Source: a virus | IMG/VR virus record: IMGVR_UViG_3300041409_000066 | Coordinates: 1-64,000 of that record | Direction: 5' to 3' (one strand) | DNA: 64,000 nt | Shown: piece by piece, positions 2,832 to 59,348 of the stretch | How positions within the stretch are numbered: position 1 is the first letter of the stretch | How the letters are laid out: every line of letters begins with the position of its first letter | The notes under the pieces: generated by a model | What the model saw: only the letters and a program-made list of their open reading frames with translations | Databases searched by the model: none | Told to the model about the DNA's origin: nothing | Made by a program: the position numbers and the translations under genes

Positions 2832-3119
2832 CTACTCGGGCGCTGCGGCGGGCTGGGGCATCTCGGCGTCAGGCTGCGGCTGGTGGGCGTCGATGGTCAT
2901 GTTCACGACCTCCGCGTCCACGCTGTCGGGCTTGACGTAGAGGTTCGCCGGGTTGGTCGGAGAGGTCGGCACGTCGTAGCGGTGACCGACGAGGTAGCAG
3001 CCGAAGCCGTCCGGGTTGCCCAGCGCGGTCTTCAACTCGTCGGCCAACTGCGCGTAGTTCACCGGCTTGATGACCTCGAACATGGCCTCACCCTCGGCGG
3101 GCGCTGCGGGCTGCGTCAT
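2832..3119 (-). CDS. Hypothetical structural-block protein
   Basis: 95 aa. The ATG at 3119 overlaps the stop of the 984-aa gene (ATGA) and is preceded by GAGGAG, so I prefer it to an in-frame ATG 9 bases upstream. The core (FEVIKPVNYAQLADELKTAL, then a strand-rich DPxGFGCYLVGHRYD region) is flanked by Ala/Pro/Gln-rich ends. No known family. Confidence 0.7.
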   Translation of the reverse strand: MTQPAAPAEGEAMFEVIKPVNYAQLADELKTALGNPDGFGCYLVGHRYDVPTSPTNPANLYVKPDSVDAEVVNMTIDAHQPQPDAEMPQPAAAPE

Positions 3120-6070
3120 GCCATCCACTCCTCATCGTCGTCGTCCAGAGAAGCCAGGCTGGCTTCGAGGGCTTCGTAGTGCGTACCAGCGATGTCGAGC
3201 CGGTCGAGGTTGGAGGCAACCACGTCCGCGCCCTCGCTGATGATCTGGGCCTGCTCGCCCGGCGTGAAGGTCTTCATCGCCATCTTGGCGAGCGCCTCCT
3301 TGGCCGCTGCCGCGATGTCGCTGCTGTCCTGTCCACCGCCGCCCTGCAAGTGCCCGGCGCTGCGCTGGAAGGCCGCGACGATCTGGTCCGTGCTCTGGGC
3401 GAGCAGCAGATCCTTCTCGGCCTCGGGGCGGGGCGCGCTGACCCGGCCCTCGCTCGTCATGTCCTCGTTCAGGTGCAGTTCAGGATCGGAGTCCGTCTCG
3501 CTGCCGGGGGTGCCGTCCGTCTCCGGCAGCGCAGCCTCGGGCTCGGGGTGGAACTCGGCCACCGACTCCAAGTCGGCCAGCGCCGTCAGGGTGTCGGGCT
3601 CGAACATCGACTCGTCCATGTCCAGCGAGCCCATGCGACCGAAGGGGCTCTGCTGGCCCCAGCCAGCCGGGTCTTCGCCGGAGGCCCAGCCAGCACTGGC
3701 CGGGTTCTCCACGGGACGGTGGACGCCCGCGCCGCCGGGGTTCATGACGGCGGGGTGGTCGAGCATCGGGTCTTCGCCAGGCTGGTCGAGTTCCATCGGC
3801 GGCGTCCACACCGGGGCAGCCGTCTTGGCCGCTCCGGCGCTCATGCTGCCGCCAGCGTCACCGCCCCCTGTGGAGCCCGTACCAGCGTCCCCAGCACCAC
3901 CGGAGGCGTCAGCCTGGCCGGTGCCCTGGCAGTGCCCACAGCCACCGCCAGCGCACTGACTGCACAGCCCGACGAGCCCGCCGTAGCCCCAGCCGGGACC
4001 GTAGGCGTGCGGGTGGCCGTGGTGCTTGTGGTGCTTCTTGTGGTGGCCCTTGGCCTCCTTGGCGAAGCCACCGCAGTCGCAGCCCGCCGCCGAGCACTTG
4101 CCGGTGTCGTTCTTGTGCAGCCCCTCGGGGTGGCCGCAGTGCTTGCACGGCATCTGGTCGCCAGCGGCCATGTGGAACCACGACTGGCCGTCGATCCCGG
4201 CAGCCGTCAGGGCCAGCACGATCTCGGCTGGCTCGACATCCGTCTCCATCGCCTCGATGACCAGCGTGGTGACCGGGCTCGCCTCGACCGGCACGAGCGA
4301 GGCGCGGTAGGTGCGGTTCACGTCGCGCTTGCGCGGCTGGGCCGGGCGGGACACGTTCTTCTGGTCATCCCGGTCGTACTCGGTGACGACGCGGGTGCGC
4401 GGGCGCAGCCACTCGGGCGCCTTCTGGTCCTCGGTGATCGAGCCACCGAACATGCCCCGGCTCTGGGCCTCGTACTGCAAGGCCAGGGCGTGCGAGCACA
4501 TCCGGCCCTCGTACCGCTTCCAGCGACCGGAGCGACCCCACGAGTAGGCCGACCACTTGCAGCCGCAGTGCCACATGGCGATGGACTGCTGGCCGGGGAC
4601 GCGCTGGATCTCCGTCTCGTAGACGTGGTGCTCGCCCTTGACGTTGGCCGCGATGGTGTTGTCACCGACCGCGATCACGTTGACGTTGCCCTCGGCGCGC
4701 AGCCGCTTGGCCTTCGCTCGCACGTCCGACCACGAGGCCGTGATGTGGAAGCGGAAGTCGTCGTCGGTGGCCGCGACGACGAGCATCCGGTACGGCGACT
4801 CGATCAGTGCCGCGTACTTCTCCGGGTGCTTGGACATCTGCCCGCCACAGAGCAAGCACTCCGACCCAGGTGAGGCATCTCGGTGCGCGTACCCGCAGTC
4901 CTTGCAGGTGGCGCCCATCGCCGGGTTGTGCTCGGTCGGTGAGTCTGGGGCGGGCATGACAGAGGCGGTCTTGGACGAGAACTTCGTCGGACCGTGCGGG
5001 TTGGTGTCGAGCAGGTTCTTGACGTGCGGGTTGTCGCCCATGATCGCGTCGATCTGCGAGGCCACGTCGCCCACGTGCTCGGGGTTGCGCTCGTGGTGCT
5101 CGTGCCCGGCAGAGGTCCAGTTGCAGCCACCACGGGGGCAGCGCGCCTCGGCGTGCATCTCGTCGTGGTCGTGGTGCGGGGCACCCCAGCGGCGCAGCGT
5201 GGAGATGGCGTCGTCGGGCACGTCGTGCTCGCGGGAGAGGTGGTGGAGCACCTTCTCCTCGGGGACGTACTCGTCCACCGGCTCGCGGGTCGGGTGGATC
5301 TGGTGGGCCTCCGGCAGCGGGTGTGGCCCACCCGTGGCGCCAGAGTCGGGGAAGTGCTTGTTGAACCGCTCGTGGAAGTCCGAGCCCACCATGTCCGGGC
5401 CACCGCCGTGGCCGGGGTCGTGCCAGACGTTCGGGTAGTAGCCCGCGTCGTCCATCGCGTGGTGGAGGTGGTGCTCGGCCTCGGAGTAGGTGTCGTGCGC
5501 GCCGAGGTGCTTGCCGTCGAGCGAGGTGTGGTACTTGCCCCGGTCGGCGGTGATGAAGGCGTCGGACTCGTCCGGGTGGTCCACGTGCTCGGGGGTCGAG
5601 TGGGCACCGGACGAGCAGATCTCGCAGTGGCCGTGGGCCGGGTCAGGCATCCCCGGCAGGGCGTCCTGCTCGTCCTCGTGGTCCCAGTCGTCGTGCTCCT
5701 CGCCGGGCGTCAGGTGGGCCACACGAGAGGCCAGCACCGTATTGGGCGCGATGTCCGGGCGCTCCACGAGGATCTCGGACAACTCGGGGTAGTCCTGCGC
5801 CGCCGTGTTCTCCAAGGAGGCCGTGGACTCGGCACGGGCGCTCAACTGGCCGCTCGTGTAGAGCCCGCCGCCCATGCCGTTGTCGAGGGTGACCTCGTAC
5901 GCCTCGTTGCCCGCGTGCGGCCCGTCCTGCACCGCTGTGACCACGCCAGGGAAGCCGTCGATGGTCATGACGGCCTGGCCGGGCTTGAAGTCCCACCAGA
6001 GCGTCGAGTCCACAGCGACCTTCGAGGCAGCAACCGACTGGTGTCGTGCCTCGCGTCGTCCGAGCGTCAT
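3116..6070 (-). CDS. 984-aa Cys/His-rich virion-block protein with SWIM-type zinc motif
   Basis: ATG at 6070 with a perfect AGGAGG five bases upstream. Domains seen: an SH3-like N-terminus (residues about 28-80, PGQAVMTIDGFPGVVTAV), a His-rich region at 130-330 with CxxC pairs and one copy of the H-L-x-x-x-H-D/G ... H-x-x-x-H module, a SWIM-like zinc finger (CGC near residue 500, CSH near 525), a second zinc cluster (CKHCG, CSAAGCDCG), a Lys/His run, a DnaJ-like CxxC segment (CSQC...CGHC), then a Pro/Gly/Asp-rich linker and a helical C-terminus. It has KTA motifs at domain borders. It follows the portal gene, so a head or injected protein is likely. Function unknown. Confidence 0.85.
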   Translation of the reverse strand: MTLGRREARHQSVAASKVAVDSTLWWDFKPGQAVMTIDGFPGVVTAVQDGPHAGNEAYEVTLDNGMGGGLYTSGQLSARAESTASLENTAAQDYPELSEILVERPDIAPNTVLASRVAHLTPGEEHDDWDHEDEQDALPGMPDPAHGHCEICSSGAHSTPEHVDHPDESDAFITADRGKYHTSLDGKHLGAHDTYSEAEHHLHHAMDDAGYYPNVWHDPGHGGGPDMVGSDFHERFNKHFPDSGATGGPHPLPEAHQIHPTREPVDEYVPEEKVLHHLSREHDVPDDAISTLRRWGAPHHDHDEMHAEARCPRGGCNWTSAGHEHHERNPEHVGDVASQIDAIMGDNPHVKNLLDTNPHGPTKFSSKTASVMPAPDSPTEHNPAMGATCKDCGYAHRDASPGSECLLCGGQMSKHPEKYAALIESPYRMLVVAATDDDFRFHITASWSDVRAKAKRLRAEGNVNVIAVGDNTIAANVKGEHHVYETEIQRVPGQQSIAMWHCGCKWSAYSWGRSGRWKRYEGRMCSHALALQYEAQSRGMFGGSITEDQKAPEWLRPRTRVVTEYDRDDQKNVSRPAQPRKRDVNRTYRASLVPVEASPVTTLVIEAMETDVEPAEIVLALTAAGIDGQSWFHMAAGDQMPCKHCGHPEGLHKNDTGKCSAAGCDCGGFAKEAKGHHKKHHKHHGHPHAYGPGWGYGGLVGLCSQCAGGGCGHCQGTGQADASGGAGDAGTGSTGGGDAGGSMSAGAAKTAAPVWTPPMELDQPGEDPMLDHPAVMNPGGAGVHRPVENPASAGWASGEDPAGWGQQSPFGRMGSLDMDESMFEPDTLTALADLESVAEFHPEPEAALPETDGTPGSETDSDPELHLNEDMTSEGRVSAPRPEAEKDLLLAQSTDQIVAAFQRSAGHLQGGGGQDSSDIAAAAKEALAKMAMKTFTPGEQAQIISEGADVVASNLDRLDIAGTHYEALEASLASLDDDDEEWMA

Positions 6071-6089
6071 TCGACCTCCTGTGGGGCTC

Positions 6090-6124
6090 TCACCCCTTCA
6101 CAGGCGTCAGGCTGGATCCGACAG
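6090..6124 (-). promoter_or_regulatory. Putative late promoter element, copy 1
   Basis: On the minus strand CTGTC, 16 bases, then CTGTGAAGGGGTGA. It lies 20 bases before the ATG of the 984-aa gene and overlaps the 3' end of the preceding small gene. One of five copies with an invariant 35-base length. No TANNNT -10 box is present. Confidence 0.65.
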
Positions 6125-6322
6125 GACCGGGCTCGGCTTCTCCGACGAGTGGGTGCCGTACTCGCGGGACTGGCGCTGCATCGGGATCACGTTGTCGGGC
6201 ACCAGCAGCACCTTCGAGACGCAGCCCTGGCAGTAGAGCAGGCAGCCGACTTGGTAGGCGTACATGCCGGGCGTCAGGGTCATCCCACAGCCCGGCTTGG
6301 CGCAGGTGTCGTCCAGTCGCAT
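6107..6322 (-). CDS. Small zinc-ribbon-like protein in the portal operon
   Basis: 71 aa, ATG start with GGGAGG upstream. Two Cys pairs (CAKPGC near residue 7, CQGC near 31) separated by a hydrophobic stretch form a plausible zinc ribbon; the C-terminal half is polar. It sits between the portal and the 984-aa gene and has its own copy of the late element upstream. No family assigned. Confidence 0.75.
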   Translation of the reverse strand: MRLDDTCAKPGCGMTLTPGMYAYQVGCLLYCQGCVSKVLLVPDNVIPMQRQSREYGTHSSEKPSPVLSDPA

Positions 6323-6332
6323 GATGCCTCCC

Positions 6333-6367
6333 TCACCCCTTCACAGGAGCGGGGACGAACCGGACAG
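6333..6367 (-). promoter_or_regulatory. Putative late promoter element, copy 2
   Basis: Minus strand CTGTC-N16-CTGTGAAGGGGTGA, followed at once by GGGAGG and the ATG at 6322. It lies just beyond the hairpin at the portal stop codon, which suits a terminator-promoter junction. Confidence 0.65.
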
Positions 6368-6375
6368 TGTTACTG

Positions 6376-6404
6376 CCGGGTAACCGCCCGAAGGTGCTAC
6401 CCGG
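6376..6404 (-). terminator. Hairpin at the portal stop codon
   Basis: Arms CCGGGTA and TACCCGG pair across a 15-base loop; the portal TAG lies inside one arm. No U-tract follows, so termination strength is uncertain. Confidence 0.4.
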
Positions 6405-8544
6405 CCTCGGCGTCCTTCTCGTCGCGCTGGCGCTCCTCCTCGCGGATGGCCTCGGTCAGGTGGACGCGCATCCCGATGTGCTTGGGGTTGCCGAACCGGC
6501 CTGTGGGGCGCCGGTCGGCGGGTGCCTCGCCCTCGTCCTGCATCTTGGTCACCTCGTCCATGACGAAGTTCTCGGAGGCCACCTTGCGCATCCGGCTGGC
6601 ACCTCGGTACAGGGCTGCTGGCTTGGGCATCGAGTCGCGCATCTCGTCGCTCTCCGGGGGTCGCTGGGCGCCGGGCATCGGGATGATCTGCGCCCCAGCG
6701 GTCGGGTCCACCGCCATCGGCTGGCCGGTGTTGGGGTCCACGTTCTGGTCGTCCTCGCCGTTGCCGGGCATCGGCGTCAGGTTGGGCGTGTTCATCGGGT
6801 CCACGCCGAGCATCGGGATCTGTCCCTGCTCGGCAGCCTGCTGGGCGTCGAGCGCCTGGGCAGCCTTAGGCTCGAAGTCGTCCTTCAAGTCCTGCGGGAT
6901 CGGCAGACCGGCAGCACGCAGGGCCAGGAAGGTGCCCTTGCGCGTCTCCTGCTCCTTGACGGCGCGCTGGATGTTCTCGTCCTTGACCTGCTCGATCTCG
7001 TCCTCGAACTCGATGGGGACGTTGATGAGGCGCGTCTTGATCGACACCGGCACGCCACCCTGCACGAGGGCTTCGAGGAACTGGCGCTCGCTCTCCTCGT
7101 CGGAGATCGACATGGACTTCATGTGCATGTCGGGGATGAGCAACTTGGGCTGCTCAACGATGCGCTCCTCGCCCGTCTCCTCGTCAATCTCAAGCACTTC
7201 CTCCATCTTCACGTACCGCTTGCCGCCGCGAACGTCGAAGTCGAAGTGCTCCTGCGCCTCGGCCACGACCAGTGCGCGGTCGCGGTAGTGGCTCTTGACG
7301 ATGTTCTGGTACGTGGTGAGCAACTGCGAGATCAGGTCGCGGTTGAGGGCGTCGGCGGCGTACGTCTCGCCACCGCTCGCGCCGGAGAGCATCGTCTTGG
7401 ACAGACCGAAGGTCTGCAAGATCCGCTCCTCAAGGCGGTCGAAGTCGTCGCCCATGTTCGGCATGTTCTCCCGACCGAAGACGGGAGCCATGTCCACGGC
7501 GAAGTGGTGGACCAGCACGCGGAAGTCCGCAGCGAGTGCGCCGTCGAGCGCCTCCTCGAAGTCCGCGAGGTCATCCTGCGTGGGGATCCACGGCACCGTG
7601 GTGCCAAGGTCGGTTGCGCTGGCACCCAACTTCGCCAGGATCAGCGGGGTGTAGAGACGATCCGCGATGGCGTCCATCGCGCTGTTCATCATCTCCTCCT
7701 GCATCACGGCGCGGAACGCACGCATGAGGATCGGGATGCCGCGCTTGTGGAACGTGTCGCCCTTGAACTTGAACTGCTTGAGCAGCACGTTGCTGACCGG
7801 CATCAGCGAGTCTTCGGAGGCGTAGTGCTGCAACTCCGGGTACGCCGCCATCAACTTCTCGTACTCCCAGCGCGGCGACTGCTTCTGGATCAGGTCGCGC
7901 AGCGTCTGCGGGAGGTGGATGAGGTAGCGCGGGTCGCGCATGAACGGGCTGCGCTCCACCTCGCAGTCGTCGGGGTTGAGCAACTCGTCGTCCTCCCAGA
8001 CGCCGAGCACCTCGTTGAAGGAGCCGAACGGCCACGCCTCCCCGACCATCCAGTATTCGCGCCCGAAGTCGATCAGGAACTCGTTGTAGTTCAGGCCGTT
8101 CTGCTCATCGAAGAACAGGTTGGTGTAGAACTCCGTGATCTGCTCGTCCTTGCACGTCAACTCCATGCCGAGCAGCGGGTACTTCGAGTAGATGTCGATG
8201 CACGACGCGATGATCGGGTGCGTCATGTAGAGGATCCGGCAGTAGGCACGGATCTTCTTGAGTTCCTCCTCCTTGCTGATGTCCCAGGGGAGGTTGTTCT
8301 GGCGCCAGTAGAACATCGGGTCGCGGGGGCGCCCGGTGGCGAACGACAGGTCAGCACCACCACGGCCCGGTGCGTTGCCGGTCTTCTCCATCGCACGGGC
8401 GAGCCGCTGGTTGACCGCACGGTTGCGGCCCATCTCGCCCACCAGCGGGTCTTGCTCGGCGGCGGCAGCACGGCGACGGAACGGGTTCATCCCGCCCAGT
8501 CGCTTGTGGACCTCGGCGTCGTACGGGTTGGTCGGGGTGGTCAC
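6397..8544 (-). CDS. Portal protein
   Basis: 715 aa, GTG start overlapping the upstream stop (GTGA). The dodecameric portal forms the DNA gate of the capsid vertex and docks the terminase. Supporting features: an N-terminal RxxR-rich tail, the helix-rich segment FYWRQNNLPWD to YCRILYMTHP (about residues 80-115), the GEAWPFGSFNEV wing strand followed by WEDDELLNPD (about 165-190) typical of actinophage portals, and a long acidic, helical, proline-containing C-terminus. Length is large for a portal, owing to the C-terminal extension. It sits among virion genes and ends in a hairpin. Confidence 0.92.
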   Translation of the reverse strand: MTTPTNPYDAEVHKRLGGMNPFRRRAAAAEQDPLVGEMGRNRAVNQRLARAMEKTGNAPGRGGADLSFATGRPRDPMFYWRQNNLPWDISKEEELKKIRAYCRILYMTHPIIASCIDIYSKYPLLGMELTCKDEQITEFYTNLFFDEQNGLNYNEFLIDFGREYWMVGEAWPFGSFNEVLGVWEDDELLNPDDCEVERSPFMRDPRYLIHLPQTLRDLIQKQSPRWEYEKLMAAYPELQHYASEDSLMPVSNVLLKQFKFKGDTFHKRGIPILMRAFRAVMQEEMMNSAMDAIADRLYTPLILAKLGASATDLGTTVPWIPTQDDLADFEEALDGALAADFRVLVHHFAVDMAPVFGRENMPNMGDDFDRLEERILQTFGLSKTMLSGASGGETYAADALNRDLISQLLTTYQNIVKSHYRDRALVVAEAQEHFDFDVRGGKRYVKMEEVLEIDEETGEERIVEQPKLLIPDMHMKSMSISDEESERQFLEALVQGGVPVSIKTRLINVPIEFEDEIEQVKDENIQRAVKEQETRKGTFLALRAAGLPIPQDLKDDFEPKAAQALDAQQAAEQGQIPMLGVDPMNTPNLTPMPGNGEDDQNVDPNTGQPMAVDPTAGAQIIPMPGAQRPPESDEMRDSMPKPAALYRGASRMRKVASENFVMDEVTKMQDEGEAPADRRPTGRFGNPKHIGMRVHLTEAIREEERQRDEKDAEAG

Positions 8545-8885
8545 GCCGAGTCCTCCTTGTAAGCCCTCATGGCGATGGCTCGCACGAGGTTGCCGAACTC
8601 ACGACGGGCCTCCCAAGGGAGGTTGCCGCCATGCGCTGCCATCAGCGACAGCATCACGTTGACGTTCGCGGCACACGTGCCGCACAGCCACACCGACCCA
8701 GGGACCGTAGCGCCCAACTGCTCGATGAGTCCGCCCTTCGCCACGACGTACTCCGAGACGAGCATGGGCTGCGGGCTGTGGAACTTGGCGCCCTCGCACG
8801 ACACAGGGCTCTCGGCCAGGATGCCGGGCAGCACGAGTCCGCCCACCTCCGCGATGAGCCGAGCGACCGTGTGAGGGACGGCCAC
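8541..8885 (-). CDS. Hypothetical protein upstream of portal
   Basis: 114 aa with a GTG start that shares its first base with the last base of the upstream TAG. Contains HTVARLIAEVGGLVLPG, a zinc-like pair (SCEGAKFH ... WLCGTCAANV) and a helical C-terminus. The layout resembles a small Cys4/Cys3His domain. Its TGA overlaps the portal GTG, so it is translationally coupled to the portal. No known family. Confidence 0.75.
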   Translation of the reverse strand: MAVPHTVARLIAEVGGLVLPGILAESPVSCEGAKFHSPQPMLVSEYVVAKGGLIEQLGATVPGSVWLCGTCAANVNVMLSLMAAHGGNLPWEARREFGNLVRAIAMRAYKEDSA

Positions 8886-10876
8886 TACGGGGCCAGGTTC
8901 TCGGCGCGGACCTGCACGAGCACGCCAGGGTCGCGGTCGCTGACCTTGAGCGCGAGGTGCTTGATGAACGAGTCCTCGTCCAGCACGGCACCACTCTCGG
9001 TGCGGTAGGCGCCCTTGAGCCACGGCGGCTGGTTGTTCGGGCCAGGAGGACCAGCGAAGGACGCCGGGTCGCCGTCGCCCATCTGGCTCGGGTCCATCGG
9101 GGCGTTGGGATCGCTGACGGCGTTGGGGTCGTTCTGCTGGACCTGGCCGGGCATCCCAGGCACGTCCACCGGGGCGCCGTCGATGGTCTGCGGGAAGGCC
9201 GAGAACTCCGGCTGCACCTGCACCGTGAACGACGTGTGGCAGAAGTCGCACTCGATGGTGCGGTCGCTGCGCGCCACGACCTGACCGGAGCCGCAGAACG
9301 GGCAGTGGTAGATCGTCTCGCCGTCGCCGGAGTCGTGGGCCACCTTGGTGAGCCCGGCCTCGATCTGCACGCGAGCCTGACGCAGCAGTGCCAGTCCGGC
9401 CTCTCGCGCATCCTCGGGTGTCAGGTTGGCTCGGACGAAGTGCTCGCCCGTGTCGTCCTGCGCGTTCATGGCGATGGTCTTCATGGCGTGGTGCCCTTCA
9501 CTCGGCGGCTCGTAGTTGTGGCTCATGCCCTCGCCCGCCGCACAGGCGAGGCAGTCACTCGGGTGGTGGTTTCGGCTGTCCGGGTGGGGCTCGTGCGAGT
9601 GGTCCTCGTTCATGACGCCGCTCTCGTGCGCCCGCTCGTGGACTTCGTTGAGGGCGTCGTCGGACATGTGGTACGAGCGGTGGATTCCGTGGTCCTCGGC
9701 CAGGTGTCGATGGCGCCAGTCGTGCTGCTGCTCGTGGTCAGCGTTGAGGCCACCGTTGTGCTGACCACCGCCGACCTCTTGCAGGTCACCACCGTGATGG
9801 GTGACGTGCATCTGCGCAGCCTCGTTGACCGACATGCTGCCGGGGATCTCGTAGCCGTGGTGCTGCGACAGGTGCGTCTGCAACTCCGTCCGGCGCTGCG
9901 GAGTGTTGGGGTTCTCGTACTGGGCCGGGGTGCGATGCCGGTGGCCTGTCCCCGTCGAGCCGTGACCCCACGAGTTGTTGAAGTATTCGCTGTGGTCGGA
10001 GGCGTGGAAGATGCCCTCGTCGTTCGAGAGCGGCTGGCCGGGACGGTCGCGGCGCTCCAACGAGAACGAGTGCTGGTGGTCGGGTGACTCCTGGGAGTGG
10101 ATCATCCGGTGCAGGTCACGTAGCGGAGCGCCTGCTCGGCGCATGTTGTCGAGCGTGCCGTCGTCGTGGTAGCCGTGGCCGTGCGGCTCGGGATCCATCA
10201 TGTGCCCGTGCAACTGGCTCTCGTTGCCGTACTCGTGCAGATCGCTGTCGTGGCCCTCGCGGCTCGGGTGGTTGGCGGGCAAGTTCTCGTGGACGCGGTT
10301 GTCGCGCTCGCGCATCCGCTTGAGGTAGTCGTCCAGTCCCTCGCCCGGCAGCGGCACCTCGTCCTCGTGCGGCGCCTGGTTGCGTGGCGCCTTGTCCATC
10401 TCCTCGGCGTGGTCGAACGCCTTGTGGATGTGCGGGTGCAGCGACTTGGGCATGTCGTCGGGGCGGTCCAGTGCGATGTCCTTGCCGAACCGCTCGGGGT
10501 ACTCGCTCTCGCCGTCAGGTGAGTCGATGCGGACCTCGTGACGGCCACCAGGGCGACCTGGCGGCACGACGTGGATCGAGTGCCCTGTCGGGTGCTCGTG
10601 GACCACCGTGTCGTTGTAGTGCAGCCCGTTGCCACCGGCCTCGTCGTAGTGGTGGTTGTGCGTCTCGGGCGCCGACATGTCGGCGTACTCCAACGCACGC
10701 CGGTCGTTCTCGCGGTTGTACGGGACGTGGGTGTCACTGGGCTCGTGCAGGTGACGACCCTCGCCGTAGGTGCCTGTCATCTGGTCGCGCCCGACCCAGC
10801 CCTCACCCATGCTGGCAGGGCGAATCGCCCGCTCGCAGTGACGACACGTGTGGTCGTAGTCCATGTCGTCAGGCAT
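8885..10876 (-). CDS. 663-aa His-rich virion-block protein
   Basis: ATG at 10876, overlapping the 3' end of the 1288-aa gene by 8 bases. Begins with a CxxC knuckle (CRHCERAI), followed by about 450 residues very rich in His, Asp, Glu and Gly, including two copies of the HL-x-x-x-HG ... H-x-x-x-H module (9622-9720 and 9800-9890). A zinc ribbon follows near residue 540 (YHCPFCGSGQ ... IECDFCHTSF), then a Pro/Gln/Asp linker and a short folded C-terminus (DEDSFIKHLALKV). Also contains PLPGEGLDDYLKRM, which recurs in the 710-aa protein as PLPGEHFDDYNKRM. Probably a virion or co-injected protein; no enzymatic motif seen. Confidence 0.8.
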   Translation of the reverse strand: MPDDMDYDHTCRHCERAIRPASMGEGWVGRDQMTGTYGEGRHLHEPSDTHVPYNRENDRRALEYADMSAPETHNHHYDEAGGNGLHYNDTVVHEHPTGHSIHVVPPGRPGGRHEVRIDSPDGESEYPERFGKDIALDRPDDMPKSLHPHIHKAFDHAEEMDKAPRNQAPHEDEVPLPGEGLDDYLKRMRERDNRVHENLPANHPSREGHDSDLHEYGNESQLHGHMMDPEPHGHGYHDDGTLDNMRRAGAPLRDLHRMIHSQESPDHQHSFSLERRDRPGQPLSNDEGIFHASDHSEYFNNSWGHGSTGTGHRHRTPAQYENPNTPQRRTELQTHLSQHHGYEIPGSMSVNEAAQMHVTHHGGDLQEVGGGQHNGGLNADHEQQHDWRHRHLAEDHGIHRSYHMSDDALNEVHERAHESGVMNEDHSHEPHPDSRNHHPSDCLACAAGEGMSHNYEPPSEGHHAMKTIAMNAQDDTGEHFVRANLTPEDAREAGLALLRQARVQIEAGLTKVAHDSGDGETIYHCPFCGSGQVVARSDRTIECDFCHTSFTVQVQPEFSAFPQTIDGAPVDVPGMPGQVQQNDPNAVSDPNAPMDPSQMGDGDPASFAGPPGPNNQPPWLKGAYRTESGAVLDEDSFIKHLALKVSDRDPGVLVQVRAENLAP

Positions 10877-13800
10877 CGTCGTCCCGCGCCTTCTCCATCA
10901 TCCGCTTGAACATCTCGTGGGCCTTGCGCTCTGACTCCATGTCCGCAGGCACCCGGCGCAGGTCGTCGGTGATGTCCTTCTGCTCGGCCATCTGCCCGAA
11001 CACGTCGGCGTAGTGCTCGGCGTGCTGCTGGGTGTGGGCGATGGCGTTGTTGACGTGCTTGAGCACGTGCAGTGGCGGACGCGGGTGCGTCACGCCGTAC
11101 TGGTCCACCCGGCGCTCGCCAGCCTCCCAGGGCTGGTTCTCGCCAGACGGGGCGTGCTTGAAGTTGAAGCGAGCACCCGTGTCGGCGTGGTGCAGCACCA
11201 CGTCCTGATGCACCTTGGCGCCGTAGCCCTCGCGCAGGTCACGGGAGGGCTCGCAGTGCTCGACGTGGACCGACCAGCCCGAGTGCGGTGCGCGCCACCA
11301 CAGCGTCGGCTGCATCGGGTCTTCACCGCGAGGCGTCTCTCCTCGGGCGTTCATGCTCTGGCGCAGCGGCGTGAAGTGCATCGTGTCGTGCGGCAGGTGC
11401 CAGTTGCGCGGCGGGTGCTCGGTCTGGGCGTAGAGCCGGTCGGTGCAGACATCGCACGCCTGGTCCGACATCTTCCACTCGGACCCGTCCGTCTTCTTGT
11501 AGCCGCCGAGCGGGTAGGTGCCCTCGCGGGTGTGGCAGATCGCGCACGTGCGCACGGCCTTGCGCGGGACGTACTCGCCTTCGCTGTTGGGCTCACCGAC
11601 GCGGCGGCGGAACTCATCGAACTTCTCGCCGGGACGCGGGCCGTACTTCTCCTTGTCCACGCCGTCGCCGTAGATGTCCCAGTGCTCACCGTCGCCCTTG
11701 GCTGCCGACTTGGAGCCGGTGCTCTCGATGAAGTCCACGTCCTTCTGCGGGATGTCCTCGGCGGTCGGGTACGACTTGGACCGAGCCCGGTGCGTCTTGA
11801 CGAAGAAGCCGTCGTCGTCCTTGTCGAGGCTGACGCCCTTGAAGCGGTCGTCCTTGGACGCGGTGTAGCCACGGCGCTGCTGCCAGCGCGGGATGCGCGG
11901 ATCGTGGTGCTCGGCGTCAGCACCGTGGTCCTGCACCCAGGCGTGCAACTCCCGGTGCAGATCCTCATGACCGAAGCCAGCGGGCTTCTCGCCCTTGGTG
12001 AAGAAGTCGCCCTCGGTGCCACCGTGGATACCCACGAGGTCGTGCGCCATCTCGCCGGTCGCTGCGTGGTAGATGTGGATGTTGTTGCCGCCGTAGTCGC
12101 GAGCCTTGTAGCCGGACGGGTGGCTGACCTCGTAGTACGGCTGCCCCTCACCGTCGCCCTCGTGCTCGTGGTCGTCGGCGCCGAAGCGACCAGGCGTCAG
12201 CGGGTGGTGCGTGCCGCCCTCGTAGCGGTGCCCGAGGTCGTTGAGGCGCTCGGTGTGCCGCTCGGTCTGACGCGACTCCGGCGTGCCACCGGGGTCGAGA
12301 ATGTCCATCGTGCTGTTGAAGATCTGCTCACCGATCTGCCTGCCAACCTGCTTGCTGCGCTGACGCCCCTCGGCGTAGTCGCGGCGCTCCTCGGCGGTGT
12401 GCTGGTGCTCCATGCCCTCGCGACCGCCGAAGTCGGTGAGCCGACCCTGGTTGTCAGCGACGTGGTACTTGCCGGTCTGGGCGTGCTGGATGACCTTGTA
12501 CGGCCCGTGGTACTCGTCGCTCGGTGACGGGTCGTGGAACGCGCCAGGGCGGTCGTACTCCTCCGGCGTGGCCCGGCGGTAGGTCGTGCCGTGCTCGCGG
12601 CTGCTGGTGTCCGTGACGATCTTCGGCGGTAGCACGCGGGGCGCAGGCTGGTGCCGAGCCCGGTTGCGGTACATCTCGTCGCGAGGGTCTTCGGTCGAGT
12701 GCTCGAACGGTGGCGCGGGCGCGTGGAACTGGACGTGCTGGGTGTCCACGTGCTGGGCGTCTTCGAGCGGCTCACCCTTGCGACGGGCCTTCTCGGTGCC
12801 CGGCAAGATCAGGCCACGGCCCATGTGGTTGCGCAGCGACAGGCCCGTCTCGGGCACCTCGTTGCCCTCACGGTCCTGCCACTTGGGGATGTGGCCGTGG
12901 TCTTGGTTCGCAGCCGTCCAGTCGTTGACGGCGCGGCTCTCGGCGTTCTGGTCATGCCGCTCGTACGACGGGTGGCCGGGCGTCGAGTAGGAGTGGACCA
13001 GCCGGTTCTGGTTGTCCACCAACTGGTACGCCCGCGTCTCGGGGTGCCGGGTGATGTGCCAGGGTCCGTGGCCCTCCTGCTTGGGCTCGACACCGTGGTG
13101 GGCCATCACCGGGTCGTACGGCGCCTTCGGGCCAGGGTGCGCCCAGAAGTCGTCGGTCTGCGACTCCTCGTTGAGGTAGCCGCCCGGCAACTTGGCCTCG
13201 CTGGCTGTCTTGCGGGACGAGCCCTTGAAGATGTCGTTGATCGAGTTCTTGAGGTCGTCGTCCACACCGTCGTTGTGCCAGATCGCCTTGGAGTGGTCGC
13301 CCTCGACGCCAGAGCGGTGCATCGGCATCGCCCGGTCGTGCAACTTGAGCAGCGTGTCGGTCGTGCCGACGATGTGGCTCACCTTGCCGCTGTCCCAGAG
13401 CAGCGAGTCGCCCACGTCGAGCCGGGTGCGCCCAGACGGGTGCTTGACCGGGTAGCCGGGAGTGTGGGTGATGCGCTCGCCGGAGTAGATGGGACGGTGG
13501 ACCCATTCAGCCGTGCGCACGAACGACAGCGGACCAGGCAGCCGAGGCTGGTGGCCCTGCACCGTGTCGTCGTGGTGCCGGTTGTCCCGAGGGTTGTTGC
13601 AGTCCACGCACTGGCTGGGGTCGTCCGGGTGCGGCGTGAACGGGTGCAGCGGCATCTGCAACGGGCGCGGCTTCGGCTTGAAGGCTGACGTGCTCGGCGT
13701 GAAGCGCGAGTGCTCGTGCTCGATGCCGTGGCCCTGCCGCTCGCGCTGACGGGTGCGCTCGGGGTTGCGGTTGTGCTCGCGGTGCTCGCTCTCGTGCAGC

Positions 13801-14735
13801 GACAGCACGCGCTCCGGCGACAGCCCGGCGACCATCTCGGGAGCGAACCCGTGATCCTGCTCCATGTGCCCAGCCGGGTTGCTGTGGTGGTCGATCAGGA
13901 AGTCGGCATAGCGGTCGTCACCGACGACCTTGCCGCCCTCGCTGGGGGCGTAGGAGCCACCGTCGAACGGGTGCCCGCCAGTCCAGTCCTCGAACGGCAC
14001 GGTGCCCTCGTTGTGGGCCGTCTTGAAGGCGTCGTTGATCGAGTCGCGGGTGCAGGCGATGCAGGTGCCGTCCTGCTTGTCGCGGGCTCGCCAGCCGTAG
14101 ATCGGACGGTGCTGCGTGTTGCTCTCGTCCGACGCATCGAGCATCTTCTGGTTCACGTCATCGAGGTCGTGCCGCAACTTCCAGAGGTGGTCATCGCACA
14201 GCGCGATGGGCGGCTTGGCCTCGGTCTGACGGGCGTGCTGGTGGCCGGTGTGGACGTAGACGGTGACGTGGTGGACCTGCTGCGCTGTCTTGGACGACAG
14301 GTGGCTCGGCCCCTCGCCCTGGTGGTTGAGCAGCCAGGCGTCGGGGTGGTTCGCCAGGGCGTCGTTGATGACCTTCTCGGCGGACTGGTAGTCGGGGTGG
14401 CCGGGGTCGAGGTGCGGCGGATCCATGTGCTCGGCCTTGGTGTGCTCGGGCTCGTGATCGACGCACCAGGGGTTGTCGCAGGGCTCGTCCCCTTCGGTCG
14501 GCTCGGTGTAGCCGCAGGACATGCACTGGCCGTGCAGGTTGTGGACGGTGTTGTGGTCGCACTCGTTCGGGTCGCGGGACAGCCCGGCTGTCGCAGCGAT
14601 GTCCGTGCCGGGCCGGTAGCGCCCGCTGGGGGCGTCTACGTCCTTGGCGCAGGTCTGGCACCACAACTGGCGCCCGCGACGGACACGAGGGCGTCCAGCA
14701 GCCATCGTGGCGTCACACCGCTGGCACTTACGCAA
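10869..14735 (-). CDS. 1288-aa multidomain Cys/His-rich virion-block protein
   Basis: The largest gene in the window. I use the TTG at 14735, preceded by AGAGGA and overlapping the stop of the small membrane gene, because it keeps the N-terminal CxxC (CQRCD) that pairs with WCQTC. Then come further Cys pairs, a CDDH ... CIAC ... NDAFKTA module (residues about 175-240) also found in the 803-aa protein, an H-x-x-x-H module near residue 300, and three related repeats: GPWHITRH...DNQNRL, GPYKVIQH...DNQGRL and a weaker YYEVSH copy. A late zinc ribbon (CAICHTREG ... CDVC) precedes a helical C-terminus. KTA motifs mark several domain borders. No catalytic motif recognised; likely a head-interior or injected protein. 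Confidence 0.82.
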   Translation of the reverse strand: MRKCQRCDATMAAGRPRVRRGRQLWCQTCAKDVDAPSGRYRPGTDIAATAGLSRDPNECDHNTVHNLHGQCMSCGYTEPTEGDEPCDNPWCVDHEPEHTKAEHMDPPHLDPGHPDYQSAEKVINDALANHPDAWLLNHQGEGPSHLSSKTAQQVHHVTVYVHTGHQHARQTEAKPPIALCDDHLWKLRHDLDDVNQKMLDASDESNTQHRPIYGWRARDKQDGTCIACTRDSINDAFKTAHNEGTVPFEDWTGGHPFDGGSYAPSEGGKVVGDDRYADFLIDHHSNPAGHMEQDHGFAPEMVAGLSPERVLSLHESEHREHNRNPERTRQRERQGHGIEHEHSRFTPSTSAFKPKPRPLQMPLHPFTPHPDDPSQCVDCNNPRDNRHHDDTVQGHQPRLPGPLSFVRTAEWVHRPIYSGERITHTPGYPVKHPSGRTRLDVGDSLLWDSGKVSHIVGTTDTLLKLHDRAMPMHRSGVEGDHSKAIWHNDGVDDDLKNSINDIFKGSSRKTASEAKLPGGYLNEESQTDDFWAHPGPKAPYDPVMAHHGVEPKQEGHGPWHITRHPETRAYQLVDNQNRLVHSYSTPGHPSYERHDQNAESRAVNDWTAANQDHGHIPKWQDREGNEVPETGLSLRNHMGRGLILPGTEKARRKGEPLEDAQHVDTQHVQFHAPAPPFEHSTEDPRDEMYRNRARHQPAPRVLPPKIVTDTSSREHGTTYRRATPEEYDRPGAFHDPSPSDEYHGPYKVIQHAQTGKYHVADNQGRLTDFGGREGMEHQHTAEERRDYAEGRQRSKQVGRQIGEQIFNSTMDILDPGGTPESRQTERHTERLNDLGHRYEGGTHHPLTPGRFGADDHEHEGDGEGQPYYEVSHPSGYKARDYGGNNIHIYHAATGEMAHDLVGIHGGTEGDFFTKGEKPAGFGHEDLHRELHAWVQDHGADAEHHDPRIPRWQQRRGYTASKDDRFKGVSLDKDDDGFFVKTHRARSKSYPTAEDIPQKDVDFIESTGSKSAAKGDGEHWDIYGDGVDKEKYGPRPGEKFDEFRRRVGEPNSEGEYVPRKAVRTCAICHTREGTYPLGGYKKTDGSEWKMSDQACDVCTDRLYAQTEHPPRNWHLPHDTMHFTPLRQSMNARGETPRGEDPMQPTLWWRAPHSGWSVHVEHCEPSRDLREGYGAKVHQDVVLHHADTGARFNFKHAPSGENQPWEAGERRVDQYGVTHPRPPLHVLKHVNNAIAHTQQHAEHYADVFGQMAEQKDITDDLRRVPADMESERKAHEMFKRMMEKARDDDA

Positions 14736-14865
14736 CGTCGTCCTCTGTCCTGGGTCGCATCTCGATCACCCTGGCGAGGTTCTCCGGGGTCAACTCACGC
14801 TTGGCCTTGATGATCTTCGGCACCTGCCACGCGATCACGCCCAGCATCGCCAACGACCACCACAT
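14728..14865 (-). CDS. Small single-helix membrane-type protein
   Basis: 45 aa, ATG at 14865 with GAGGAGG six bases upstream. The N-terminal 15 residues (MWWSLAMLGVIAWQV) are hydrophobic, followed by a basic then acidic tail, a membrane-anchor layout. First gene behind the third late element, and its TAA is overlapped by the TTG of the 1288-aa gene. Function unknown. Confidence 0.7.
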   Translation of the reverse strand: MWWSLAMLGVIAWQVPKIIKAKRELTPENLARVIEMRPRTEDDVA

Positions 14866-14875
14866 GACTGCCTCC

Positions 14876-14910
14876 TCACCCCTTCACAGGGTCCATCGCG
14901 GGCTGGACAG
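14876..14910 (-). promoter_or_regulatory. Putative late promoter element, copy 3
   Basis: Minus strand CTGTC-N16-CTGTGAAGGGGTGA, running directly into the GAGGAGG ribosome binding site of the 45-aa gene. Same 35-base length as the other copies. Confidence 0.65.
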
Positions 14911-14914
14911 GAGG

Positions 14915-15457
14915 TCAGGGCCGCAACTCGCGGAAGTGGTACGGGTGGACCTCTGGCGGGACATAGGGGTACTCCTCGTCCTCCGAGAAGTTGGTGGTCA
15001 TGTGCAGCGGGGCACCGCCGGTCCCGCCGATGGACTGCCGAGCCCGGCGCTGGGCGCGTTCGGACAGATCACGAGCCCGGCTGACCACCCGGACGGGCAC
15101 GTGGGGGACGCCCTCCTCGACAGCGGCTGCGAGGCGGTGGTTGCCCTCTCCGAGCGAGCCCCAGTGCTGGTCCGGGTCGTGCTCCATCATCAGCGGCGTG
15201 TGGATGCCCTTGCCGCTGCGGATGTCAGCCCGGATGCCGTCGATGATCTCTCGGTCGCGCTCGGGCATGTGGGGGTTCTGGCGCCCATCGTGCTCGCGGT
15301 AGGGCAGCAACTTATGGGTGGGCACCATGCCCACGATGGAGCGACTCTCGTCGCCTTCGAGGTGGCCGATGCCGCCGGAGCGCCGGTCCTCGACCTCGGG
15401 GTGGATCTCGTCAGCGGCGGGCGAGATGGCCGCGACCTTCGCCCAGAGCAGGGCCAC
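14915..15457 (-). CDS. ParB/Srx-like domain protein in the virion block
   Basis: 180 aa, GTG start two bases after the upstream TAG. Residues 44-125 match the ParB N-terminal (ParB/sulfiredoxin) fold: VGMVPTHKLLPY, then EIIDGIRADI, and the signature GEGNHRLAAAVEEG, equivalent to the GxxRxxA phosphate-binding loop. In this superfamily members bind DNA with CTP hydrolysis or act as nucleases or kinases; which applies here cannot be told. The absence of a C-terminal HTH and the position beside virion genes argue against a partition role. The C-terminus is Arg-rich then acidic. Confidence 0.8.
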   Translation of the reverse strand: MALLWAKVAAISPAADEIHPEVEDRRSGGIGHLEGDESRSIVGMVPTHKLLPYREHDGRQNPHMPERDREIIDGIRADIRSGKGIHTPLMMEHDPDQHWGSLGEGNHRLAAAVEEGVPHVPVRVVSRARDLSERAQRRARQSIGGTGGAPLHMTTNFSEDEEYPYVPPEVHPYHFRELRP

Positions 15458-15459
15458 GG

Positions 15460-15954
15460 CTAGTCCTCGACGCCGAAGGCATCCCGGAGCAGGACGGAGG
15501 ACGCCAGGGAGATCAGGCGCTCCCCGGCCTCCTCACCGAGTTGGGCGGCGCAGGCGCGGATCGCCGGGTCTTGCCGAAGCCGGGCCTGGATGAGCCCCAG
15601 AGCGTCCTGGGCGATCTCCCCGAAGCCGTCGAGACGCCCCTCGGCTGCCAGGGCGTTGAGCACCCCGACCTCGCCCTCCTCGTCGTACGCCGCGAGCACG
15701 CCGGTCGCCTCGATGACGCCCACGTCGAGGGAGTCGTCCAGCCCGTCGTCCACCACGTTGGCCTGCTTGCCGAGCACTGCGATGTCGTACTGGTCGAGCA
15801 GCACGATGGCGCCCGTGGCCGAGCCAGTCGAGACGAGCACGTGGGCCGACCGCTGGTCGGACTGCACGACCGTGCCCTGGTCACCCATCACCAGGGTGTG
15901 GTCATCGCAGGCCGGGCCGATGTACGACACCTTCTGGCCCTCGTGTGCGGTCAT
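15460..15954 (-). CDS. Hypothetical virion-block protein with SH3-like N-terminus
   Basis: 164 aa; ATG overlaps the upstream stop (ATGA). The first 60 residues (GQKVSYIGPACDDHT ... GTVVQSDQ ... VLVSTG) look like a small SH3-type barrel; the rest is acidic and helical (LNALAAEGRLDGFGEIAQDALGLI). No Cys cluster, unlike its neighbours. No family recognised. Confidence 0.7.
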   Translation of the reverse strand: MTAHEGQKVSYIGPACDDHTLVMGDQGTVVQSDQRSAHVLVSTGSATGAIVLLDQYDIAVLGKQANVVDDGLDDSLDVGVIEATGVLAAYDEEGEVGVLNALAAEGRLDGFGEIAQDALGLIQARLRQDPAIRACAAQLGEEAGERLISLASSVLLRDAFGVED

Positions 15955-18083
15955 CGCTGGACCCTCTCGACCAGAGCGGGAAACCGCTCGATAGCGCGGT
16001 TGCCGATGACGAGCGCGGCCTGCCGGGACAGGCTCGGGTCAGAGCGCAGCGCCGTGTTGGCGATCTCGCGCACGACCTTGGCCTCGATGCCGCGCTGCTT
16101 CATGCGCTGCACCTGGCGCTCGTTCATCCGCTTGTTGTAGTCATCGAAGTGCTCACCCGGCAGCGGCGGCGCCTCGTCGTTCATCGGGTCGTCGTGGGTG
16201 TGCGGGTTCATGCCCGGCCCGTGGGTGTGCTCGCGCTCGTGGAACTTCACCGCGTGCTCACCGGCCATGTCACCGATGACGCTGGCGCCGTAGCCGTGGT
16301 GCTCGTCCAAGTGCTGATGCACGTCGAACTCGTTGGGCGCAGGGTGAACCTCGCGGCTCGGCTGGCGGTGCGTGAAGCCGCTGTAGTCGCCCTCCTCCGG
16401 GCGCTGGCTGTCGGCATCGGCCAACTCGCGCCGGTCACGCTCGCGGCTGTAGTTGGCGCCCGGCGTGCCGTGGTCCTCACCGAAGGGACGGAAGGCCCGA
16501 GGCGTCGGGTTGAACATGCGGTGCAGGTCATCGTGGTTGGTGTACGGGCTCGGGTTCGACATCTGGTCCATGTAGGACCGGGTGTCCACCGGGGTGACCG
16601 TACGGCCAGCGCCCTGGGTGTGGCGGTCCACGTGGTTGTCCGGGTACGGACGGCCCCAGATGCCGTGGCCGCGAGGTGCTGCCTCGGCCTGGTGCGGGTG
16701 CGCGTTGGAGTAGTCGGGCTCGCGGCTCGCGCCGCCCATCCGCATCCCGTCGTGGAAGTCGTGGACCTGGCCCTGCACGCGGTCGTAACCACCCCACTGG
16801 GTGTCCACGTGCTCGGTGGTGGACACGTCCGGGTGCCGGTCGTGCAGGTACATCATCCGGCGGCTCTGGCTGAACGAGTGGTGCGGGTCGCCCCACTGGT
16901 CGAGCGCGGCCCGCGTCGTCTGGGTCGCGTAGCCGCCCGTGTTGTACGTGACATCGCCGTTGGGGTGGTGCCGCACGATGTCGGTGTCGTGCAGGCGGAC
17001 CACGCGGTCGCCCGTGCTTGGGTCCATGCGCGCCGTCAGGTTGCGACCGAGGCGGTGCTCTCCGGCGTACGGCCCGGTGCGGACCTTCTTGCGCGGGTTG
17101 GACAGCACGCGGTCGATGTCGGTGACCGGGTGGTTGGCGCTAATGCGGTTGTCCGACCCGCCACGGTCTGCCTCGGTCTGCAAGGTGTCCTCCAAGGCGT
17201 TGAGTGAGCGGCGCAGCCAGTGCTGGTCTGACGGGTGCGTGGGCAGTTGGTGCTGCCACAGGGTGTACGGCGTGCCGTACTGCACGTGATCCACCTGCGG
17301 CACGAGGCCGGGCGGGCGCGGGCCGATGTGCTCGCGGATCTTGCGCTCGTACGGGTCTTGGTGATCGTCCTTGCCCCGGCTCATGTCCATGACGGCAGGG
17401 CCGTTGGTCGAGTGCTCGATAGGCACCGTGCGCTCCATCAGCGGCTTGGCTGCCGTCTCGGCGTCCTTGCGGCGGTCGAACTCACCGCCGTGCGAGCCGA
17501 TGATCTCGTCCTGACAGGTCGGGCAGACCTCGCCGTTGCCGTGCGGGTACTTGATCCGGCAGCCAGGGCACACGTCCGGGTGGATCCGGCCATGCACCGG
17601 GTCGTCGTCGGCGTGGATGAAGTCGTCGTCGTACGACGCATGACGCCACGAGAACGGGTCGCCCTCGTCGTAGTTGTAGCGGCCAGCCGCGTCCTCGTTG
17701 GGCTCGGCGTGGTTCTGGCCGTCCTCGCACTGCTGGCGCTCGTAGCGAGGGGTGTCGGGGTCGATGTGCGTCCAGTCGGAGCCGAAGTTGTGGTTCCTGA
17801 TCGCGACCGGCTCGCCGCAGTGCTTGCACGGCAGGTGGGCCTTCGCCCCGGTGACCGTCCGACCGTCGATGGTGCGCATCAGACGCTGGCGCTGACGCTG
17901 ACGGTGCGGACGGCCCCCGTTGCCGTCGTCCTGGCACAGCGGGCACAGCCCTACCGCCGTCTCGGCACCAGCAAGGGTCGCGCCGCAGTTCTTGCACGAG
18001 GCGCGAGGCGTCTTGTTGAGGTCGAGCGGCGGGAGGTTGGTGAGGTCGTTGACCTCCTCCGCGCTGGCTGCTGTGAGGTCCAT
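15951..18083 (-). CDS. 710-aa His-rich, zinc-ribbon virion-block protein
   Basis: ATG at 18083 directly after the upstream TAG. The N-terminus has a zinc ribbon (CKNCGATL ... CPLCQ), then a second CKHCGEP unit and a third (CPGCRIKYPHG ... CPTCQ). Residues about 230-640 are Asp/His/Arg-rich and low in hydrophobics; near the end is one copy of the HL-x-x-x-HHG ... H-x-x-x-H module followed by PLPGEHFDDYNKRM, shared with the 663-aa protein. The last 45 residues are helical and basic. Probably part of the same virion-protein family; no enzymatic motif. Confidence 0.8.
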   Translation of the reverse strand: MDLTAASAEEVNDLTNLPPLDLNKTPRASCKNCGATLAGAETAVGLCPLCQDDGNGGRPHRQRQRQRLMRTIDGRTVTGAKAHLPCKHCGEPVAIRNHNFGSDWTHIDPDTPRYERQQCEDGQNHAEPNEDAAGRYNYDEGDPFSWRHASYDDDFIHADDDPVHGRIHPDVCPGCRIKYPHGNGEVCPTCQDEIIGSHGGEFDRRKDAETAAKPLMERTVPIEHSTNGPAVMDMSRGKDDHQDPYERKIREHIGPRPPGLVPQVDHVQYGTPYTLWQHQLPTHPSDQHWLRRSLNALEDTLQTEADRGGSDNRISANHPVTDIDRVLSNPRKKVRTGPYAGEHRLGRNLTARMDPSTGDRVVRLHDTDIVRHHPNGDVTYNTGGYATQTTRAALDQWGDPHHSFSQSRRMMYLHDRHPDVSTTEHVDTQWGGYDRVQGQVHDFHDGMRMGGASREPDYSNAHPHQAEAAPRGHGIWGRPYPDNHVDRHTQGAGRTVTPVDTRSYMDQMSNPSPYTNHDDLHRMFNPTPRAFRPFGEDHGTPGANYSRERDRRELADADSQRPEEGDYSGFTHRQPSREVHPAPNEFDVHQHLDEHHGYGASVIGDMAGEHAVKFHEREHTHGPGMNPHTHDDPMNDEAPPLPGEHFDDYNKRMNERQVQRMKQRGIEAKVVREIANTALRSDPSLSRQAALVIGNRAIERFPALVERVQR

Positions 18084-22887: not shown

Positions 22888-22962
22888 TGGCGAGGTGCCG
22901 AGGAGTTGAACCCCGGTCTGTCGGGTTGGAGCCGACCGTCCGTTCCGCTGGACCAGCACCCC
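22888..22962 (-). tRNA. tRNA-Trp (anticodon CCA)
   Basis: Acceptor GGGGTGC/GCACCTC (one G-U pair), D stem GTCC/GGAC, anticodon stem GTCGG/CCGAC with loop CTCCAAC, T loop TTCAACT, discriminator G and encoded CCA. Confidence 0.95.
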
Positions 22963-23067
22963 TTGGGTGGTGGCCGGGAGGACTCGCTACGTCAGCGTTG
23001 CTGTCGGCGCGGGGTCCACCCGGCGCCGGTCCATCGCTGCGTGCTCATGAGATGGACGGTAACACGT

Positions 23068-23137
23068 TGGGGTGAGGCGGGGAATCGAACCCCTCCACCC
23101 GGATCACAACCGGGTGCCCTGACCACAGGAACCTCAC
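23068..23137 (-). tRNA. tRNA-His (anticodon GUG)
   Basis: Anticodon stem CCCGG/CCGGG with loop TTGTGAT; acceptor GTGAGGT/GCCTCAC. Discriminator C73, the histidine identity base, and CCA are encoded. The base before the acceptor is T, so the G-1 required by HisRS is not templated at that position and would have to be added. Confidence 0.93.
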
Positions 23138-23139
23138 AG

Positions 23140-23211
23140 TCCGCTCCCGAGGAGTTGAACCTCGCTTTCCCGGTTATCAGCCGGGTGCCCTCACCGATGG
23201 ACGAGGAGCGG
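23140..23211 (-). tRNA. tRNA-Ile (anticodon GAU)
   Basis: Perfect acceptor CCGCTCC/GGAGCGG, anticodon stem CCCGG/CCGGG with loop CTGATAA, discriminator A. The 3' end continues ACTG, so CCA is not encoded. It lies two bases from tRNA-His. Confidence 0.94.
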
Positions 23212-23221
23212 TTGTCTCTCG

Positions 23222-23294
23222 TCGGGGAGGGAGGACTCGAACCTCCGTCTACCTGCACCCAAGGCAGGTGGCCTAGCCGCTGGCCCACACCCCG
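23222..23294 (-). tRNA. tRNA-Pro (anticodon UGG)
   Basis: Anticodon stem CCTGC/GCAGG with loop CTTGGGT; T stem GGAGG/CCTCC. The acceptor CGGGGTG/CTCCCCG has one U-U mismatch at position 6:67. Discriminator A; CCA not encoded. Confidence 0.9.
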
Positions 23295-23297
23295 TTG

Positions 23298-23327
23298 TAG
23301 CCCGAGGCGCAGGTGCGCGTCGGGCTA
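23298..23327. terminator. Strong hairpin 4 bases upstream of tRNA-Pro
   Basis: Eight-base arms TAGCCCGA and TCGGGCTA flank an inner GCGC-AGGT-GCGC stem-loop. There is no U-tract on either strand. It could terminate transcription entering the tRNA run or act as a processing site. Confidence 0.45.
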
Positions 23328-23414
23328 GTTCGGAATGGGATGCCGCTGGGTCACGTCGAGGACGGTACAGCAGGAGGCCGGACAGATCCACGAGGTTCGG
23401 CGTCTACCGGGTGT

Positions 23415-23516
23415 ATGGACACCACAGAGTTGGCCCGCATCGTCATCGAGCGCCTCGACGCACTGCTCGCGTTGATCGAGGAGGTGCTCAACGACGAAGA
23501 CCCGCCACCGAAGTGA
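23415..23516 (+). CDS. Possible 33-aa plus-strand ORF in the tRNA region
   Basis: The only plus-strand frame that resembles a gene: ATG, an acidic amphipathic helix (ELARIVIERLDALLALIEEV) and strong G/C third positions. It fills part of a stretch otherwise empty between tRNA-Pro and tRNA-fMet (23328-23717); in the remainder, 23517-23717, I see nothing else. No good ribosome binding site is near, so it may be chance. Confidence 0.3.
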   Translation: MDTTELARIVIERLDALLALIEEVLNDEDPPPK

Positions 23517-23717
23517 CGGGCCTTGCCGACAGGTGTGACCTGCGTACCACCTCACGACCCCGCCGCTCGTGGACCTCGGGTGGCTCCTTGCGGATCGACC
23601 TCTGGTGGACGTACGACGAGCCGGTGTCGGTGCTGTCGGCACCAGGGACTCATCGGCCAGCGTCGAGTCGATGGGTCGGCCACCGAACAAGATGGTCTTG
23701 ATGGCCCTGGTGCCTTG

Positions 23718-23790: not shown

Positions 23791-23917
23791 TTGCACGAAG
23801 CCGAGCGCCTGTTCATCGAGTTCACCTGCCGAAGCAGTCACCCCGAAGGCCGGTCAATGAAGGGTTAGCCAGCCGTGTGCGCTGCCCCTCGTCTTCGTGG
23901 ATGGGACCGTAGCCGGT

Positions 23918-24307: not shown

Positions 24308-24313
24308 GCCGGG

Positions 24314-59346: not shown

Positions 59347-59348
59347 GG

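Follow-up and report, generated by a model that had tools for sequence, protein, structure and literature searches.

Introduction

Small metal-clamped domains are common, and zinc is the usual choice of metal. C2H2 and BED zinc fingers are small, carry four ligands and end in H-x3-5-H. The zinc-site histidines of S100A8/A9 are placed on helices. The zinc ligand set of these proteins consists of histidine alone (PMC4888247). On a larger scale, the polyvalent proteins of phages (PMC5512222) are long multidomain proteins encoded near portal and protease genes.

Here we describe a module of about 35 residues with the pattern H-[LM]-x3-H-G-[YFW]-x(13-19)-H-x(3-4)-H, carried by long proteins encoded around the portal gene of a virus. 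The module ends in H-x3-5-H like C2H2 and BED fingers, but it has no Cys, is helical and not beta-beta-alpha, and is mostly acidic. Its putative ligand set, all His, is like that of S100A8/A9, whose site lies between subunits of vertebrate EF-hand proteins of unrelated sequence. The proteins that bear the module resemble polyvalent proteins in length and gene neighbourhood and in the GNAT, NUDIX and intein parts of their orthologues, and differ from them in that most of the enzymatic parts lie in relatives, not in the proteins studied here. A four-His module of this kind is not named in the part of the text of the polyvalent-protein paper (Iyer et al. 2017, PMC5512222) consulted for this comparison.

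Results

The window, the whole 64,000-nucleotide stretch of DNA analysed, comprises bases 1-64000 of a 153,911-bp virus record. Comparison of protein sequences places this 154-kb record as a relative of Myrna, Bxz1 and Finch. Its portal protein is ~39% identical to the portals of Mycobacterium cluster C phages, also resembles the portals of Rhodococcus phage Finch and of some Gordonia phages, and is 52-65% identical to its counterparts in 16 uncultured contigs. With Myrna and Finch proteins as tblastn queries, the major capsid protein was ~61% identical, and the 984-aa gene was found to be the homologue of Myrna gp96. In Myrna, the gene order is large protein, portal, large protein, protease-like gp97, minor capsid, major capsid. 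The module-bearing genes lie on the minus strand around the portal gene (Table 1), and from these positions and the Myrna order we conclude that they belong to the head block. If the genome is circularly permuted, this block would continue across the ends of the record. Five tRNA genes are present on the minus strand just upstream of the head block (window 22891-25892).

Table 1 Features of the head block and copies of the module. Positions are those of the window unless marked as positions of the record.
Feature	Position	Strand	Evidence
984-aa protein, without supported copy	3116..6070	-	phrog_30974/phrog_2940; blastp; Myrna gp96 homologue
Portal protein, landmark of the block	6397-8544	-	phrog_2833, E 9.6e-152
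663-aa protein, bears copies 3 and 4	8885..10876	-	ORF; blastp to L006-L021
Copy 4 (weaker), HLAEDHGI...VHERAH	9617..9721, core 9626-9706	-	E 8.1e-8 (record profile)
Copy 3, HLSQHHGY...MHVTHH	9785..9889, core 9794-9874	-	E 3.5e-11 (record profile)
1288-aa protein, bears copy 2	10869..14735	-	ORF
Copy 2, HMEQDHGF...LHESEH	13773..13883, core 13782-13868	-	E 1.9e-11 (record profile)
710-aa protein, bears copy 1	15951..18083	-	ORF
Copy 1, HLDEHHGY...FHEREH	16218..16328, core 16227-16313	-	E 9.9e-14 (record profile)
Terminase large subunit	57301-59439 of record
Minor capsid and major capsid genes	141.6-140.0 kb of record		tblastn with Myrna and Finch proteins
Head maturation protease	141743-144901 of record

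Searched with a profile, the full 153,911-bp record gave exactly copies 1-4 and no further copy above threshold; the E-values in Table 1 are from a record profile that itself includes all four copies. A second, outside-only profile was built solely from module copies of other phages. With this profile, copies 1, 2 and 3 scored 31.1, 18.8 and 15.6 bits, and each outscored every shuffle, the best of 2000 local shuffles per protein reaching 9.2 bits for the 710-aa, 8.5 for the 1288-aa, 10.0 for the 663-aa and 12.2 for the 984-aa protein. Copy 4 scored 4.0 bits with the outside-only profile after composition correction, and 5.4 bits corrected or 19.2 bits uncorrected in a leave-one-out search. It matches the strict pattern, which was observed four times, compared with a mean of 0.05 and a maximum of 2 in 3000 local shuffles. 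The motif is real.

An earlier note on this DNA had claimed five copies, of which the one in the 710-aa protein, the one in the 1288-aa protein and the two in the 663-aa protein were borne out. The fifth, in the 984-aa protein (5144..5257, minus strand; core 5153-5242, HLSREHDVP...HDHDEMH), lacks the Gly and scored at noise level with every profile; it is best regarded as a His-rich look-alike, unsupported as a member. A looser look-alike at 10097-10183 was likewise turned down by the profile.

Alignment of 31 diverse copies, most of them found by a pattern that required the His, revealed that only the four His and the Gly are invariant, with Leu nearly so and a mean column identity of 29%. 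Not one Cys occurs in the 1188 residues of these copies. The cores are mostly acidic, with a mean charge of -3, and the final His pair is spaced by 3 residues in 23/31 copies and by 4 in 8/31. AlphaFold2, run on the 31-sequence alignment, predicted helices at 6-17 and 30-41 and a short helix at 21-24 with a mean pLDDT of 81, in agreement with the helical hairpin suggested from the His spacing in the earlier note, and the hairpin was predicted again in a separate phrog_6646-type model. Neither of the two outcomes that the note had named as refuting its proposal, disorder in all copies and lack of recurrence, was found.

Searches of the PDB by sequence and by fold returned nothing significant for the module, Pfam and NCBIfam gave no module match, and no paper describing such a domain was found in the literature. 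The best viral fold match was a protein of Tsukamurella phage TIN4 (foldseek probability 0.87, E 0.32), whose genome carries a phrog_6646-type gene. The claim that the pattern belongs to no described domain is supported for Pfam, NCBIfam and the PDB, but PHROGs contains the module unrecognised inside phrog_6646, a family of unknown function. In 84,980 genomes of bacteria and archaea, a pattern restricted to CAC codons for His, to CTC or CTG for Leu, and to H-[DE] gave 59 matches and no true copy; their best profile score was 13.2 bits, and none had the full module. The module represents a real small domain family that is absent from the searched libraries except within an uncharacterised phage family, and both the family and its fold are well supported.

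Scanning IMG/VR with a DNA pattern yielded 78 stretches, and by our own count a clear module is encoded in 35 of them; the pattern with CAT as first codon added few real copies (e.g. L192, L196, L222, L227). The module was found in three settings. Large phage proteins, orthologues of the 984-aa protein, the 663-aa protein and the head protease, carry 1-4 copies each: two to four apiece in 984-aa orthologues of 2218, 1950, 1760 and 1647 aa, and one apiece in protease orthologues of 1446 and 1649 aa. The 663-aa protein has orthologues of 370 and 399 aa with one copy each, after a ribbon-like part, unlike the 663-aa protein of the window, where the copies are placed before that part. In the second setting, proteins of ~280 aa bear the module at the C-terminus, and the third is the stand-alone, ~140-aa phrog_6646 family. 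A ~280-aa carrier and one further module copy gave no match when searched against phages, nor did another copy against plasmids. With the four-copy alignment as query, 53 stretches fitted the pattern and the tblastn step retained none of them; the shortness of the module is the probable reason. The module nevertheless recurs in other phages, as the IMG/VR orthologues and phrog_6646 attest, and its proposed spread among large head-region proteins is seen in three genes of the window and in the IMG/VR orthologues. On these sequence matches, it recurs in the large head-adjacent proteins of this bacterial virus and in many other actinobacterial viruses.

The phrog_6646 family, a siphophage family of ~140 aa and unknown function, has members in 97 records of isolated phages (Gordonia, Tsukamurella and Rhodococcus). 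In the window, its profile matches the copy in the 710-aa protein alone, over 30 residues (E 0.0014), and no full-length member was found; phrog_6646 and the window proteins share the same module and do not appear to form one family. The C-terminal half of phrog_6646 is the module, with the same four His and the same helical pattern. It differs in being a stand-alone gene outside the head block, in having an N-terminal Sm-like barrel before the module, in its last spacing (H-x4-H, not H-x3-H), and in two extra invariant His downstream of the module. Because most of the 31 aligned copies came from a pattern that demanded His, nine phrog_6646 homologues, collected by whole-protein similarity and not by motif, provide an independent test: down to ~33% identity to the query, all four His are invariant, and the Gly varies once. 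An AlphaFold2 model of the phrog_6646 type (12 sequences) has a barrel of five strands and, after it, three helical pieces as in the first model, the barrel resembling Sm/Hfq-like and Tudor-like barrels (Foldseek probability near 1, E about 0.02-0.1). In Rhodococcus phages ReqiDocB7 and Perlina (L186:974-1495, L187:971-1474), the stand-alone module gene adjoins a gene annotated as CobT-like cobalamin biosynthesis.

Beyond the module copies, the only domains detected in the window proteins were weak zinc-ribbon or treble-clef matches. The 710-aa protein has a weak treble-clef match at residues 170-193 (E 1.3e-4, just under the Pfam cut-off). In the 663-aa protein, the C-terminal ~150 aa contain a ribbon-like CxxC pair (CPFCGSG...CDFC) that is kept in relatives, and residues 520-556 give weak Pfam zinc-ribbon matches. 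The best-conserved part of the 984-aa protein, at about 4460-4756, contains a SWIM-like CxC...CxH stretch, recognised by eye. Pfam domains of enzymatic and splicing types were found in 984-aa orthologues, with NUDIX above the cut-off in L007, L010 and L021, GNAT also in L007, and an intein in L007; the 984-aa protein of the window has no Pfam match to NUDIX or GNAT.

Searches against isolated phages by tblastn gave no match for the 663- and 1288-aa proteins. For the 710-aa protein, the only matches were to Caulobacter phages and one uncultured phage; they cover 50-70 residues of the region 328-401 of the protein and lie outside the module. Residues ~350-405 of this protein (15951-18083), VRLHDTDIVRHHPNGDVTYNTGGY, are similar to phrog_19389 and also resemble proteins encoded close to the ends of giant Caulobacter phage genomes. 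Parts of the 1288-aa protein align by blastp with a 1649-aa protein of L102. This single protein (L102:1644-6590) combines parts of the head protease, the 1288-aa and the 710-aa proteins, which are separate genes here, indicating gene fusion or fission in the head-block protein set. Where the L102 orthologue has HLMEAHGYDE...HAEDH, the head protease of the record has a degenerate copy, HMLHHGYETT...DEDH.

The distribution of the module does not follow that of the portal. In contigs whose portals are up to 65% identical, the 663-aa-type orthologues are long and have no module, and other sequence or inteins occupy their variable N-terminal part. No module was found in eight records with close portals, in the head-block proteins of Myrna and Finch, or in the complete Finch and Pinkcreek records, whereas it is present in more distant phages, whose portals match at 51-53% over most of their length. 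Since closer portal relatives lack it, the module appears to move, and gain, loss and movement within a fast-changing protein set would be the simplest account.

Other variable parts were seen in the same proteins. In head-block proteins, inteins seem to interrupt metal-ligand motifs, with junctions placed by eye: in the CPFCGSG ribbon of three 663-aa orthologues (L015:7745-9580, L016:113-2128, L019:6439-9588), and between the two Cys of the SWIM-like CxC in a 984-aa orthologue (L007:12898-17073). Pfam finds LAGLIDADG or intein-splicing domains in these four proteins. The N-terminal part of module-free 663-aa orthologues contains a conserved unknown domain, DNDxFRAVHDAFGHAATGRGFDAHGEEAAFAAHSxMF (L008:1068-2960, L021:7767-9653, L019:6439-9588, L007:7365-9209), which has no Pfam match in L008.

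Discussion

We propose that the module is a four-His, probably zinc-bound helical hairpin that serves polyvalent-type proteins of the head region as a mobile bead for docking or structure, a reading to which we assign a probability of roughly 0.55. Helix 1 would bear H-[LM]-x3-H and a Gly cap, followed by a short turn and by helix 2 with H-x(3-4)-H. As the only invariant polar residues of two short helices, the four His suggest one metal ion holding the hairpin together. Metal binding by the four His is likely, and the ion they most likely clamp, probably zinc, would stabilise a hairpin that is too small to keep its fold by itself. The virus is a portal-terminase phage whose module-bearing genes lie near virion genes (portal, protease, capsid, terminase), as those of polyvalent proteins do. 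The module would have been shuffled as a bead among long proteins of this type whose genes surround those for the portal, head protease and capsid, and would also have come to follow an Sm-like barrel in a siphophage protein family. The gene neighbours suggest that the large bearing proteins are located in the virion, and they may travel inside the capsid and enter the host along with the DNA. Charge, size and context point to metal-stabilised protein-protein docking, or a spacer bead, as the most likely job.

The lack of Cys and the mean core charge of -3 favour structure or docking over nucleic-acid binding, and bear on the idea that the module derives from, or is analogous to, a C2H2/BED-type zinc finger in which two Cys became His and which binds DNA or RNA. 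We consider this unlikely. The H-x3-4-H end and the overall ligand spacing are like those of C2H2 fingers, ribbon-like CxxC parts also occur in the bearing proteins, and in the stand-alone version the module is preceded by an Sm/Hfq-like barrel, a type of fold that frequently serves to bind RNA; however, the predicted fold is helix-turn-helix and not beta-beta-alpha, no copy contains Cys, the cores are mostly acidic, and no PDB finger matches beyond chance by fold or sequence. Membership among C2H2 fingers proper is rejected, there being no Cys ligands in the first half and only helices in the module in both predicted models. It is rather unlikely that the hairpin is metal-free and that its His form a pH switch or a contact surface. 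His-rich helices can respond to pH, and the metal site is putative, but exactly four His are invariant at fixed short spacings where nearly all else varies, the usual sign of a metal site.

A module that carries or withholds metal (zinc, nickel, manganese), as a virion stockpile or by taking it from the host, would accord with the several copies per protein in relatives and with the all-His zinc sites of metal-withholding S100 proteins (PMC4888247). No transporter or metal enzyme is linked to the module in the window, though, and most proteins have one or two copies only, which makes such a role improbable. Least credible, and already refuted for copies 1-3, is a chance product of His-rich, low-complexity sequence. 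The bearing proteins are His-rich, and the 984-aa copy and the look-alike at 10097-10183 are of this kind; the shuffles, the outside-only profile, the homologues with invariant His and the confident fold all speak against it, and chance matches in the bacterial and archaeal scan reach only 13.2 bits and never the full module.

The preferred reading, a metal-clamped docking or structural bead, has a bolder form that we put forward tentatively and hold to be possible but doubtful: an undescribed all-His helical-hairpin metal fold, largely or wholly confined to phages, serving as a docking bead in proteins that are packed and injected with the DNA of actinobacterial myoviruses. The long head-region proteins of these phages change fast and have few known parts. 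An all-His module that is spread between them and absent from the searched curated libraries would offer a handle on these otherwise hard-to-interpret proteins, and its profile finds further ones of the kind.
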